Source: Polyangiaceae bacterium
GTDB lineage: Bacteria; Myxococcota_A; Polyangia; Polyangiales; Polyangiaceae
DNA length: 53,679 bases
Assembly (NCBI GenBank): GCA_025937835.1
Contig: JAICQO010000040.1
Coordinates: forward strand, 1-53,679
Reading direction: 5' to 3'
Positions 1-4,782 of this stretch are shown piece after piece. Made by a program: the position numbers and the translations under genes. Position 1 is the first letter of the stretch, and the number at the start of each line of letters is the position of its first letter. Under the pieces are notes generated by a model. It worked only from the letters and a program-made list of their open reading frames with translations. It searched no databases and was not told the origin of the DNA.

Positions 1-1167
1 GATTTCGGCGAGCGCCGCCTCCAGCGCGAGCGAGCGTTGCCCTTCCTTGGAACGCAGCGCCACGCTCCTCGCTGCGACCTCCTCGTTGCCGATCACGAGC
101 GCGAACGGCACCAGCGCTTGGTGCAAATCGACGACGCGCCGTGACAGCGACTCGTTGCGATCGTCCACCCGAACGCGCACACCGCGCTCGCGCAACGCTG
201 CCTGGGCTTCGCGCGCGAACACCGCGTGGGGCTCGCCGAGCGGCAGGATCCGCACTTGCTCCGGGGACAACCAGGCGGGTAGCGCCTGGCCGTGGTGCTC
301 GAGCAAGACCCCGAGGAAGCGCTCCAGGCTGCCGTACAGAGCGCGGTGAAGCATCACCGCACGCTGGCGTTGCCCGTCGCGATCCACGAAGCCGAGGTCG
401 AAGCGCTCCGGCATCACGAGGTCGAACTGAATCGTGCCGCATTGCCATTTTCTGCCGAGTCGATCGGAGAGCACGAACTCGAGCTTCGGCCCGTAAAAGG
501 CGCCGCCGCCGGGCTGCACGGAGTGAGCCCAGCCGAGGCGCTCCAGTACCTCCGAGAGCGCGGCCTCCGAGCGATCCCAGAGCGCCTCGGCGCCGGCGCG
601 GTCCGCCGGCCGCGTCGCGAGCGAGAGCTCGAGCGAGTCGAAGCCGAAGCGCGCGTAGAACGGCGGAACGGAGCGACAGAAGCGTTCGACCTCCTCCAGC
701 GCTTGCTCGAACGCGCAGAACACGTGTCCGTCGTCTTGCGTGAACTGTCGCAGGCGCAACAGGCCCTGCAGCGTGCCGCTCGGCTCGTCGCGGTGCACGA
801 CCCCGAACTCGGCGAGCCGGATCGGCAGATCGCGATACGAAGGGTGGCGCCGTTCGGCGATGTACACGTGCCCGGGGCAGCTCACGGGCTTCACGGCCGC
901 GTCGAGCTTCTGGTCGAGCACGCGAAACATGCCCTGCTCGAAATGCTGCCAGTGGCCGCTGGCTTCCCAGACGGGGCGCCTCAAGATCTGCGGCGTGCGG
1001 ACCTCGGAATAGCCCGCGAGGTCGAGCTCTTCTCGCGCGAGTTGCTCGAGGATCCGATACAGAATCAGGCCGTTCGGGTGCCAAAAGGCCATTCCCGGCG
1101 CCTCTTCCTGGAAGTGGAAGAGGTCGAGGCGTTGACCCAGACTGCGGTGGTCTTCTTCATCGATCAT
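1..1167 (-). CDS. thrS: Threonyl-tRNA synthetase, catalytic/anticodon-binding form, cut by left edge
   Basis: Charges tRNA-Thr in the cytoplasm. The reading frame runs off the left edge, leaving about 389 residues. Class II landmarks are clear: motif 2 (RDEPSGTLQG...FTQDDGH) and the three zinc ligands of ThrRS, Cys in KPVSCPGH, His in QDDGHVF and His in LHRALYGSLERF. A nearly complete anticodon-binding domain follows. The protein starts at the equivalent of about residue 245 of a standard bacterial ThrRS, in the DHRSLGQRLDLF segment, so the TGS and editing domains are absent. ATG at 1167 is preceded by AGGA at 7 nt, and the region upstream is a leader-peptide attenuator with no coding similarity to the missing domains. 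Whether the genome has a second, full-length ThrRS cannot be seen here. Confidence 0.95.
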   Translation of the reverse strand, partial: MIDEEDHRSLGQRLDLFHFQEEAPGMAFWHPNGLILYRILEQLAREELDLAGYSEVRTPQILRRPVWEASGHWQHFEQGMFRVLDQKLDAAVKPVSCPGHVYIAERRHPSYRDLPIRLAEFGVVHRDEPSGTLQGLLRLRQFTQDDGHVFCAFEQALEEVERFCRSVPPFYARFGFDSLELSLATRPADRAGAEALWDRSEAALSEVLERLGWAHSVQPGGGAFYGPKLEFVLSDRLGRKWQCGTIQFDLVMPERFDLGFVDRDGQRQRAVMLHRALYGSLERFLGVLLEHHGQALPAWLSPEQVRILPLGEPHAVFAREAQAALRERGVRVRVDDRNESLSRRVVDLHQALVPFALVIGNEEVAARSVALRSKEGQRSLALEAALAEI

Positions 1168-1234
1168 GGGAATGTCCTGGTTCTCGAGGTGCGGTGGTTC
1201 GGTTGAACGCCGACTGGAACCAGAACTCAGCGAG

Positions 1235-1317
1235 GCCCGTCCCAATCGGGGCGGGCTGTCGGAGGTCAGTGATTGCGATTCAGCGCGCGCACACGACCGC
1301 CGGCCCGCCAGTGCGGG
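1235..1317 (-). promoter_or_regulatory. Transcription attenuator of thrS (alternative stems)
   Basis: Four segments behave like a classical amino-acid attenuator, read on the minus strand. Segment 1 is CCCGC (1317-1313) and segment 2 is GGCGGGC (1309-1303); they form a 5-bp stem with loop ACTG. Segment 3 is GCCCGCC (1256-1250), an exact 7-bp complement of segment 2. Segments 3 and 4 form a hairpin at 1256-1235 with arms GCCCGcCCC and GGGaCGGGC, one mismatch and loop GATT. Segment 1 lies in the Thr-Arg codons of the leader peptide, so a ribosome stalled on the first Thr codons would mask it and free 2 to pair with 3, preventing 3:4. No U-tract follows the 3:4 hairpin, so the way it stops transcription, or whether it acts on translation instead, is open. 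Confidence 0.75.
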
Positions 1318-1351
1318 TAGTGGTCGTGGTGGTGGCTGCGCGAAGACGCAT
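1280..1351 (-). CDS. Thr-rich leader peptide of thrS (23 aa)
   Basis: A 23-codon ORF, ATG to TGA, lies 113 nt upstream of the thrS start. Residues 7-12 are six consecutive threonines (codons ACC ACC ACG ACC ACT ACC) and residue 14 is a seventh; residues 15-17 are Gly-Gly-Pro. It resembles in principle the leader peptide of the E. coli thr operon, in which ribosome pausing at Thr codons senses charged tRNA-Thr. No Shine-Dalgarno sequence is visible; the predicted transcription start is about 4 nt before the ATG, so the message would be nearly leaderless. The codon run, its position before a ThrRS gene and the overlapping alternative stems support the call; expression has not been shown. Confidence 0.82.
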   Translation of the reverse strand: MRLRAATTTTTTRTGGPAVVCAR

Positions 1352-1361
1352 CAGGCTTTGC

Positions 1362-1389
1362 AGGATACGCGCGCGAGTCTGCTTGTCAA
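1362..1389 (-). promoter_or_regulatory. Putative sigma-70-type promoter of the thrS leader
   Basis: On the minus strand a perfect TTGACA (1389-1384) is followed after 16 nt by TATCCT (1367-1362). It sits between the pirin stop codon and the leader-peptide ATG. The expected start of transcription is near 1355. Confidence 0.65.
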
Positions 1390-2721: not shown

Positions 2722-4026
2722 TTGGATTCTGACGTCCGTGCATTGTCTTCTGTTTCGAGAACCCGGGCATGGGGGCTGACCGGGTTCACGACGCTCGCGC
2801 TCGCCGTGACGCTGATCGACCGCCAGGCTTTGTCAGCGCTGGCCGAGACGGTGACCGATTCGCTCGGTATCTCCGACGTCGGCTACGGCTGGCTGTCCTC
2901 GGGGTTCGCCGCGGCCTACCTGGTCGGCTCGCTGCCGTTCGCTCAGTTGATCCAGCGCATCGGCCCGCGCTTCGGGCTGGTGCTGACCTTGTCGTTGAGC
3001 TCCGCAGTGGTCGGGCTGCACGCCTGGGTCCCGGGCTTTGCCGCGTTGTTGCTGCTCCGGATCGCGCTCGGGCTCAGCGTGGCGCCGTCGCTCGCGTGCG
3101 CGACGCAGACCGTGCACCGCGTGATGCCGTTCAAGGATCGAGCGCGCGCGATCGGCATCCTGTACCTCGGCAACTCGATCGGCTCCTCGGTCTGCCCGCC
3201 GCTCGCGGTCTTCCTCGAGTCGCGCCTCGGCTGGCGCGACGCGTTCTTCACGATCGCGGCGATGGGGCTCGTGCTGGTGCCGATCTGGCTGTTGCTCGCG
3301 TTCACCGGGCGCGATCGGCCGACCTTCGACGCGCCGTCGATCCCGATGGGCGGCCTTCGCACGTTGAGCCCGTTCACCCGCAAGCCCGACAGCATTTTCC
3401 TGCTGATCCGCGACGAGCGCATCCTGCGCGGCAGCTTCATCGTGGCCGCCGCGGCGCCCGTGACGACGGTGGTGCTGCTGTGGGGCTCGAAATACCTGAT
3501 CCGCGACCACGGGCTCGAGCAGCACCAGGTCGGGCATTACCTGTGGCTGCCCGCGCTGTTGTTCGGGCTGGGCTCGATGGGCTTCGGCGAGCTGCGCGCG
3601 CGCTCGGCGCGGACCCGCGCGAGCTCGCGGCCGCCTCGCGCGCTGGTGGCCTCGGCTGGCGCGATGTGCTCACTGCTCGCCGCGGTGCCGTTCGCGCAGG
3701 GGGCCTGGCCGTGCATCCTGATCGCGAGCCTGGCGATGTCCGGCGCCGGTGGCCTGTATTCGCTGGCGACGAGCGACATGCTCTCGCACGCGAGCCGCGG
3801 CACGATCCCGGCGGTCACCGGGCTCACGACGTTCACGCAGAGCCTCGTGTACATCACGGTCAGCCCGATCATCGGTCACCTGGTGCAGACCTACGGGAGC
3901 TACGACTTCGTGATGGTCGGCGCGGGCCTGTGGGTGCTGCCCGGCTGCGTGTATTGGCTGCTGCGGACGACGCGCGATCCGAGGCAGATCCCCTCGATGC
4001 GACCGCACGAGCCGTTTCGCGGCTGA
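2722..4026 (+). CDS. Major facilitator superfamily transporter
   Basis: A 434-residue polytopic inner-membrane protein with the twelve-helix hydrophobicity expected of MFS carriers. The first helices contain an Asp-Arg pair (LIDRQALSALAE) and a following WLSSGFAAAYLVGSLPFAQLIQ stretch of the kind seen in the anion:cation symporter (hexuronate/sugar-acid) branch, so an organic acid is a plausible substrate, but this is inferred. It starts at TTG with a strong ribosome binding site. It runs towards the DUF882 peptidase gene, with 18 nt between the stop codons, and diverges from pirin. Confidence 0.88.
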   Translation: MDSDVRALSSVSRTRAWGLTGFTTLALAVTLIDRQALSALAETVTDSLGISDVGYGWLSSGFAAAYLVGSLPFAQLIQRIGPRFGLVLTLSLSSAVVGLHAWVPGFAALLLLRIALGLSVAPSLACATQTVHRVMPFKDRARAIGILYLGNSIGSSVCPPLAVFLESRLGWRDAFFTIAAMGLVLVPIWLLLAFTGRDRPTFDAPSIPMGGLRTLSPFTRKPDSIFLLIRDERILRGSFIVAAAAPVTTVVLLWGSKYLIRDHGLEQHQVGHYLWLPALLFGLGSMGFGELRARSARTRASSRPPRALVASAGAMCSLLAAVPFAQGAWPCILIASLAMSGAGGLYSLATSDMLSHASRGTIPAVTGLTTFTQSLVYITVSPIIGHLVQTYGSYDFVMVGAGLWVLPGCVYWLLRTTRDPRQIPSMRPHEPFRG

Positions 4027-4044: not shown

Positions 4045-4782
4045 TCAGGGCTCGAACGGCACTTGCGGCACCGCGAGCCCTTCGGGCCAGTCCAGGCGTC
4101 GCGAATACACCGCGTCCTGCTGAGGCAAGCCCTTGCCGCCGATCGAACGCTCGCGCCAGTTGCGGCCCGGGGGAGAGCCGTCGAGCCAGTGAAAGCTGGT
4201 CTGCCGCGAATCGAGGTGCACGAACTGCGTGCGCGGGTGGGTGTAGATCCCGACGCCGGCGCGCGGCAGCGTGCGCAGATAGGAAGCGAGCTTGACCGCT
4301 GGCACGCCGTCCAGCTTGAAATCGATGGCCTGGCCCGTGCCGTGATAGCCCTGGCGTTTGCGGCCCGGCTTTCGGTACGCCGAGATCACCTCCACGCGCT
4401 CCACCTTGAAGTGATACGCGGCGCGAAAGAGCAGCTGCAGCGTGCGCCGGTCGAGCCGCGTGGTCACGTAGTGCTTGCGATCGTGGGTGTCGCCGAGCAG
4501 CTCGTCGAGCTTCTTCGCGGAGGCTTCGTCGACCTGGCCGAAGGCGTCGTAGAGCCGTAGCTTCTCCGAGCGCCTGGTGTTGACGAAGTAGATCTCGAGC
4601 GCCGGCAGCGACGCATAGGCGGAAAGCTCCGGGGGCGGGCCCGGCGCTGGCGGTGGCGCTACGGGCCGTGCCTTGACGGGGGCTGCGACGGCCGCCGGTG
4701 CGTGAGAAGACGCGCTGTAGACGAGCGCGCCAGTGAGCGCGAGCCCGGCCAGGGCAGCGGTCAGTGCGCGAGCGCGACGCAT
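4045..4782 (-). CDS. DUF882/YcbK-type M15-like peptidase
   Basis: A 245-residue exported protein. An N-terminal signal/anchor (residues 5-24) precedes a Pro/Ala linker and a C-terminal peptidase domain. Likely zinc ligands are His147 and Asp154 in GYHGTGQAIDF and His189 in FVHLDS; SAYR at 135-138 is the other family hallmark. Members resemble D-Ala-D-Ala carboxypeptidases, and some are associated with peptidoglycan remodelling. It is transcribed alone, converging on the MFS gene and divergent from a lipoprotein gene across 123 nt. Confidence 0.85.
   Translation of the reverse strand: MRRARALTAALAGLALTGALVYSASSHAPAAVAAPVKARPVAPPPAPGPPPELSAYASLPALEIYFVNTRRSEKLRLYDAFGQVDEASAKKLDELLGDTHDRKHYVTTRLDRRTLQLLFRAAYHFKVERVEVISAYRKPGRKRQGYHGTGQAIDFKLDGVPAVKLASYLRTLPRAGVGIYTHPRTQFVHLDSRQTSFHWLDGSPPGRNWRERSIGGKGLPQQDAVYSRRLDWPEGLAVPQVPFEP

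Follow-up and report, generated by a model that had tools for sequence, protein, structure and literature searches.

A contig of a Polyangiaceae bacterium opens with a threonyl-tRNA synthetase (ThrRS) gene, thrS, preceded by a short reading frame that contains a run of threonine codons. The question raised by this locus is whether a ribosome translating that frame controls the synthetase gene. The whole stretch analysed, hereafter the window, comprises 53,679 bases. The original prediction placed a ribosome-mediated attenuator at 1235-1389, with a promoter, a 23-codon ORF, six Thr codons and three alternative stems (1:2, 2:3 and 3:4). The promoter, the ORF and the Thr codons are all present on the minus strand (Table 1). 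The attenuator reading gains support from the Thr run found at every short thrS locus compared and from the pairing tests described below; on this comparison, the leader is very likely a ribosome-mediated attenuator through which a shortage of charged tRNA-Thr turns on a spare ThrRS. A second tier that hides the Shine-Dalgarno site of thrS is probable. The element covers the predicted interval and extends past 1235 to the thrS start at 1167 through two further segments, 5 and 6. Four features lie outside the original prediction: the gene is an accessory short paralog, it is spread over Myxococcota and Burkholderiaceae, its leader ORF is nearly leaderless, and a hairpin lies over the Shine-Dalgarno sequence.

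Table 1. Features of the thrS leader region in the window
Feature	Position	Strand	Basis or remark
Sigma-70-type promoter TTGACA-16-TATCCT	1362..1389	minus	10/12 matches
Leader peptide ORF, 23 codons, MRLRAATTTTTTRTGGPAVVCAR	1280..1351	minus	ATG start, 10 nt past the -10 box; expected to be leaderless or close to it
Six consecutive Thr codons (ACC ACC ACG ACC ACT ACC), proposed sensing codons	1316..1333	minus	ORF translation
Segment 1, Thr codons, pairs with 2	1313..1333	minus	1:2 swap test
Segment 2, GC-rich stretch after the Thr codons, pairs with 1 or 3	1292..1310	minus	1:2 and 2:3 swap tests
Segment 3, pairs with 2 or 4	1248..1259	minus	2:3 and 3:4 swap tests
Segment 4, pairs with 3 or 5	1234..1246	minus	3:4 and 4:5 swap tests
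Hairpin 3:4, GC-rich, terminator-like, without a U-tract in the source species	1235..1256	minus	folds
Segment 5, anti-Shine-Dalgarno, CTCCGTCCGG-like, pairs with 4 or 6	1201..1222	minus	4:5 and 5:6 swap tests
Segment 6, thrS Shine-Dalgarno region, AGGA at 1178-1175	1175..1188	minus	5:6 swap test; paired in folds
Short thrS paralog	1..1167	minus	catalytic and anticodon-binding domains, without TGS or editing domain; truncated at contig end

The gene behind the leader encodes a ThrRS, as proposed, although it is a short second paralog and not the usual thrS. The 389 residues readable before the contig end contain only two Pfam domains, tRNA-synt_2b and HGTP_anticodon, and their alignment to E. 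coli ThrRS (chain 1qf6_A, 642 residues) spans residues 241-614 of the latter. A second ThrRS match in the source genome lies on another contig (G000:C49) in a 654-aa frame. Since the window gene retains the core and anticodon-binding domains alone and this second match occupies a 654-aa frame, it is a spare, short second ThrRS, with the housekeeping thrS located elsewhere in the genome. Conserved positions in 56 aligned short enzymes include the zinc ligands (all three, apart from one gap at one of them), the arginine of motif 2, Tyr462 and Gly463 (E. coli numbering), suggesting that the short enzyme is probably an active synthetase. A pirin-type protein (1415-2770, minus) lies upstream of the leader on the same strand, followed by an MFS transporter (2722-4026, plus) and a DUF882/M15-type peptidase (4045-4782, minus); none of these window neighbours has an evident tie to thrS. 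Flanking ORFs at nine loci, judged by eye only, look mutually unrelated.

The Thr run is rare in the window and conserved outside it. Six ACN codons in succession are found at one place in the 53,679 bases and in none of 100 dinucleotide shuffles. A Thr-rich leader ORF lies upstream of thrS at 85 of 85 short thrS loci; as some genomes were sampled twice, these amount to 69 distinct leaders. Of the 85, 84 have at least five Thr within nine codons. The atypical leader, L040, has four Thr and no start codon where one would normally stand. Controls were drawn from 54 other thrS loci, mostly full-length, of which three had less than 150 nt upstream; a Thr-rich hit appeared in 1 of the remaining 51. 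This sole hit, at L060, lies about 500 nt away in a frame without a preceding Met or Val; five of nine codons there are Thr. At three control loci (L048, L061 and L137), the frame reaches the locus end, making the true start uncertain. The original prediction named relatives that keep thrS and lose the Thr-rich ORF or the pairing as the finding that would speak against it; in the sequences compared, all 69 distinct leaders of short thrS keep the Thr run, and in the 53 used for the pairing test own segments pair better than swapped ones. An additional locus outside the 85, L115, is a copy of L008 and also carries the Thr run.

A non-redundant set of 53 leaders was retained from the 85 after removal of near-duplicates and of L015, L093, L040 and L113, which have odd spacing or a run-on frame; the position of the Thr run was set by hand in L022 and L040. 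Every one of the 53 has an in-frame ATG or GTG 12-24 nt ahead of the Thr run, whereas the other two frames combine a start with an open frame in only 4 of 106 cases. Third positions of the Thr codons vary (ACC 216, ACG 113, ACT 39, ACA 2). The leader ORFs span 16-36 codons, and their stop codons lie 87-156 nt from thrS. Together, the conserved frame and variable third positions indicate that the leader is a translated reading frame, beyond a mere RNA motif.

Some leaders depart from this layout. In L015 (G031:C859) and in L093, a named copy of it, 369 nt separate the leader stop from the matched thrS start, versus about 110 nt usually, reflecting either an insertion or a thrS start elsewhere. 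L113 and L167 are the same Burkholderia leader, in which the frame lacks the usual stop and continues into the thrS region; the remaining Burkholderia leaders examined keep the leader stop codon.

The promoter is the only promoter-like site called within 900-1800 of the window. Upstream of the 53 leaders, the best promoter-like score averages 7.7, compared with 5.1 at random positions in the same loci. The distance from the end of the -10 box to the leader start codon is 6-10 nt in 46 of 53 leaders, most commonly 7 nt (20/53). Transcription usually begins about 7 nt after a -10 box. Given this spacing, the leader ORF is probably leaderless or nearly so. A precedent for a leaderless leader ORF is trpL of Sinorhizobium (PMC7298713).

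For analysis of RNA structure, the 53 leaders were divided into six segments along an alignment, and the duplex energy of each sequence's own segments was compared with that of segments exchanged between sequences. The three stems of the original prediction can form in the window, and these, together with two further helices, are stronger between own segments than between swapped ones: 0 of 5000 permutations were as good for 1:2, 2:3, 3:4, 4:5 or 5:6 (z = -8.4, -5.1, -8.6, -6.2 and -6.4, respectively). Control pairs 2:4, 3:5, 4:6, 1:5 and 2:6 were at chance in the same 53 leaders, and 3:6 was rather worse. With 36 divergent representatives, hand-picked with the protein tree in view, all five neighbour helices again gave 0 of 10,000 each; in this set, 1:3 and 1:6 were at chance and 1:4 was rather worse. 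Because control and neighbour pairs have the same ancestry, ancestry alone cannot explain the contrast between them. One further pair, 2:5, was also better than swapped (47/5000 in 53 leaders; 19/10,000 in the 36 representatives). This pairing is not predicted by a simple chain and may represent a further alternative state, or it may merely mirror 4:5. The strongest local hairpin in the window is 4:5, at -20.8 kcal/mol, and segments 5 and 6 pair beside and across the AGGA of the thrS Shine-Dalgarno sequence.

Covariation in relatives, which had been put forward as a check, is only partly borne out. Pairs were counted on a separate alignment for an off structure (1:2, 3:4 and 5:6) and an on structure (2:3 and 4:5). 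In the off structure, 73.5% of cells are paired, compared with 71.0% in shuffles (0/500 as high) and 35-48% in slid registers; the on structure has 84.9%, compared with 82.4% in shuffles (0/500 as high) and 38-56% in slid registers. These paired cells agree with the swap tests. Double changes, however, do not exceed those in slid registers, numbering 58 cells in the off structure against 65 at slide -1, and 25 in the on structure against 26 at slide -3. For the on structure, two of five measures are ordinary relative to shuffles: pairs with double changes (99/500) and further pair types (94/500).

These features fit a switch in which transcription would begin at, or a few bases from, the leader start codon and a ribosome would translate the leader peptide. 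With plentiful Thr-tRNA, the ribosome would reach the stop codon and cover segment 2, allowing 3:4 to form the terminator-like hairpin and segment 5 to pair with the Shine-Dalgarno region in segment 6, so that thrS stays off. With scarce Thr-tRNA, perhaps resulting from threonine starvation or a blocked main ThrRS, the ribosome would stall at the Thr run and cover segment 1. Pairing of 2:3 would then leave segment 4 free for segment 5, transcription would proceed, and the Shine-Dalgarno site would be open. The spare enzyme, by charging tRNA-Thr, would in turn shut off its own gene. In its fullest form, this proposal describes a six-segment relay in which one stalled ribosome sets both transcription and translation of thrS (2:3, then 4:5), acting through a leaderless leader ORF on an emergency synthetase without an editing domain, in a gene-plus-leader unit that has moved between phyla; we give this combined account an even chance of being right.

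Equilibrium folding of growing transcripts with a ribosome mask gives a mixed picture of the relay. In the window, stalling at Thr codons 2-4 leaves 2:3 with 5.0-6.5 pairs and 3:4 with 2.1-3.8 after segment 4 has been transcribed, and 4:5 reaches 8.9 pairs after segment 5 has been added. With the ribosome at the stop codon instead, 3:4 has 8.0 pairs, and later 7.1, with 0.9 in 4:5. A stall at Thr codons 1 and 5 yields almost no 2:3, yet 4:5 still has 8.9 and 7.7 pairs. Across the 53 leaders, a loss of more than two 3:4 pairs at one or more stall codons is seen in only 31, and a gain of more than two 4:5 pairs in 30; even a ribosome at the stop codon leaves 4:5 a mean of 3.4 pairs. In full-length transcripts at equilibrium, stalling hardly exposes the Shine-Dalgarno region (mean unpaired 0.308 when stalled versus 0.271), with a gain above 0.1 in 9 of 53 leaders and a loss above 0.1 in one. 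Hairpin 5:6 persists on stalling in the window at equilibrium, and the second tier would therefore need co-transcriptional kinetics. Support for this tier comes from the swap test and from modelled folding during transcription, not from equilibrium folds.

The absence of a U-tract after hairpin 3:4 was named as the main weakness of the original prediction. This weakness is eased by the relatives and persists in the window and in Myxococcus and Corallococcus. In 12 of 12 Burkholderia loci examined (three repeating loci already counted and nine additional), six or seven T directly follow the hairpin, giving it the appearance of an intrinsic terminator in that genus. The other 51 tails average 2.78 T in ten bases, compared with 1.35 in the rest of the leader (0/10,000 draws as high), and 17 of these 51 have at least four, suggesting that 3:4 is probably an intrinsic terminator in part of the Myxococcota. 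The window has three T in the ten bases after 3:4 and no terminator called at its leader, and Myxococcus and Corallococcus tails have one T each. With so few T, intrinsic termination is doubtful in these cases.

This variation bears on which level of expression the leader would control. It is possible, though rather unlikely, that transcription attenuation acts alone, with 3:4 deciding readthrough, 5:6 reflecting the pairing expected of any C-rich stretch close to a Shine-Dalgarno site and 4:5 reflecting shared composition. The Burkholderia U-tract, the U enrichment of the other tails as a group and the small opening of the Shine-Dalgarno sequence in equilibrium folds would all suit this account. 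However, composition does not readily explain why 4:5 and 5:6 pass the swap test in both leader sets while 4:6, 3:5 and 2:4 fail, nor why modelled stalling strengthens 4:5 in more than half of the leaders. The converse, that control is purely translational in species without a U-tract (Myxococcaceae and the window), is a little less probable still. Here, stalling would act through 2:3 and then 4:5 to expose the Shine-Dalgarno site, and transcription would either not end prematurely or be ended by Rho on untranslated RNA. The T-poor tails of Myxococcus and Corallococcus are consistent with this idea, as are the lack of a called terminator and the presence of 5:6 in the window. Against it, the number of T in the tail correlates with the strength of neither 3:4 nor 5:6 (Spearman p 0.20 and 0.28).

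Two other explanations would change what the leader senses or what the gene is for. E. coli ThrRS binds its own messenger as a tRNA-Thr mimic and uses its N-terminal domains for operator binding. A comparable protein-binding operator here, in which ThrRS would bind the leader as a tRNA-Thr mimic and the Thr run would be incidental, seems very improbable: the short enzyme lacks the N-terminal domains, and the Thr run keeps to one frame with a start at a fixed range ahead of it and variable third positions. Its appeal lies in the known autoregulation of E. coli thrS, which is named in one paper (PMC2965389). Alternatively, the leader might sense inhibition of the main ThrRS by an antibiotic such as borrelidin or obafluorin, with the short enzyme serving as a resistant substitute. 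Any block of ThrRS would deprive the leader of Thr-tRNA, the gene is accessory and patchy (at least 21 of 108 family genomes; 19 of 65 Burkholderia genomes), and a second ThrRS, ObaO, is a known obafluorin immunity factor (PMC11252418). A change of Gly463 (E. coli numbering) to Ser or Ala is given there as a feature of ObaO-type obafluorin resistance (PMC11252418), but the equivalent residue is Gly in 56 of 56 aligned short enzymes, and none could be assigned to the ObaO type. Met at the Leu489 position is found in short (16/56) and full-length (9/19) enzymes alike and is thus uninformative on resistance. A role as a resistance copy appears unlikely.

The proposed attenuator can be compared with several known systems. 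Like the thr operon attenuator of gammaproteobacteria, which has the leader gene thrL and the Rfam family Thr_leader, it combines a Thr-rich leader peptide, alternative 1:2, 2:3 and 3:4 pairing and a stalled ribosome that senses Thr-tRNA. It differs in having a synthetase paralog as its target, a nearly leaderless ORF and two extra segments over the Shine-Dalgarno sequence. A chain of alternative hairpins over six segments is also shared with the enteric his operon leader, where the final hairpin serves as terminator; in the present leader, it is the central hairpin that resembles a terminator, and the final one covers the Shine-Dalgarno sequence. T-boxes offer another comparison, and those of thrZ sense uncharged tRNA-Thr. 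Bacillus thrZ is likewise a second ThrRS gene under RNA control, but its T-box senses tRNA directly, whereas a translating ribosome is the proposed sensor here.

Searches against Rfam assigned the leader to neither class. No family matched anywhere in the window at gathering thresholds, only three unrelated weak hits appeared in 1100-1420 at E values up to 10, and five relatives gave none at E values up to 1. Membership of Thr_leader was rejected, as no covariance-model match was obtained in the window, at relaxed thresholds or in the five relatives. A T-box was rejected in the same way (window at gathering thresholds; 1100-1420 at E up to 10; five relatives).

The published record contains related arrangements. 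Attenuators are described for threonine genes in other species and, in the form of leader peptides, for the Streptomyces synthetase genes pheST, trpS and leuS (PMC1262725), and leader-peptide attenuators are also described for hisS/hisZ of bacilli, synthetase paralogs included (PMC2965389). These share with the present case a synthetase gene under a leader rich in its own amino acid. The amino acid, gene and phyla differ, and a Shine-Dalgarno relay is not named for them in the text available. T-boxes are reported at thrS of Firmicutes and at thrZ, the second thrS of bacilli (PMC2494555). The cyanobacterial ThrRS T2 is a stress-induced second ThrRS with impaired editing; it is regulated through Zur and zinc, and its editing domain persists in degenerate form (PMC4787780). 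By comparison, the enzymes considered here lack the editing domain altogether and have a Thr leader ahead of the gene.

Among the open-licence matches listed, a scope with little subscription literature, no paper described a Thr leader at thrS. We know of no earlier Thr-codon attenuator on a threonyl-tRNA synthetase gene. The principle is classic; we are not aware of earlier examples of this target, this distribution, a near-leaderless ORF on a gene of this type or the Shine-Dalgarno tier. Beside thrZ T-boxes and Zur control of cyanobacterial T2, the leader would represent a third solution to the problem of when to induce a spare ThrRS. Many myxobacteria, including Myxococcus xanthus (strain AM003, L075), are predicted to induce an editing-less enzyme during a shortage of Thr-tRNA, possibly at the cost of more Ser-for-Thr errors. 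The relay would also make it possible to ask cleanly whether stalling of a single ribosome governs termination as well as access to the Shine-Dalgarno site, and the leader with its gene could act as a natural reporter for ThrRS-targeting compounds.

The short paralog is present in at least 21 of 108 genomes of the window's family, besides fragments in G070 and G071, and also occurs in further families of the same order and phylum. Named genomes among the best 80 matches listed include Myxococcus, Corallococcus, Archangium, Hyalangium, Pyxidicoccus, Nannocystis and Sorangium, together with three Burkholderia records and one Holophagaceae record. Each of eight named genomes checked has two ThrRS matches, the second lying in a 614-709-aa frame in seven and measuring 439 aa in the Holophagaceae genome. 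Matches to the short query at E values up to 1e-150 were found in 19 of 65 Burkholderia genomes, and the Thr leader is carried by Caballeronia sp. SBC2 as well as by the 12 Burkholderia loci. The short paralogs form one clade: most members are Myxococcota, and the rest come from Burkholderia, Caballeronia and a single Acidobacteriota record. A quick tree built from 53 short and 19 full-length proteins places the short enzymes on one side of a branch with SH-aLRT support of 99 (no bootstrap).

An RNA model built from 51 of the 53 leaders (L009 and L020 left out) was searched against 106 of the 108 family genomes. It returned 22 hits in 21 genomes, 19 of them at a short thrS. The model missed G031 and G007, whose leaders were found by a script search. 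Three weak hits lie away from any short thrS, with E values of 0.017-0.026: L161 (G051:C244), L162 (G054:C24) and L163 (G102:C1:8362346).

Individual records also show some irregularities. L171 (G507, Burkholderia) has a TGA inside the short thrS match and is perhaps a decaying copy. In L087, a record titled Comamonas sp. KCTC 72670, the short thrS and its leader are Myxococcus-like, and the record is perhaps mislabelled or contaminated. Additional thrS genes are found on plasmids of Acetobacter, Thioclava, Pantoea and Gluconobacter (L177-L180), the one in L180 being unannotated. Those of Acetobacter, Thioclava and Pantoea (L177-L179) are full length and have no more than three Thr in nine codons within 300 nt upstream. 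Neighbours of the four plasmid genes include folE/folE2, a Fur-family or other repressor, dksA, carbonate dehydratase, hemB and hisI, sets that presumably correspond to zinc-starvation genes.
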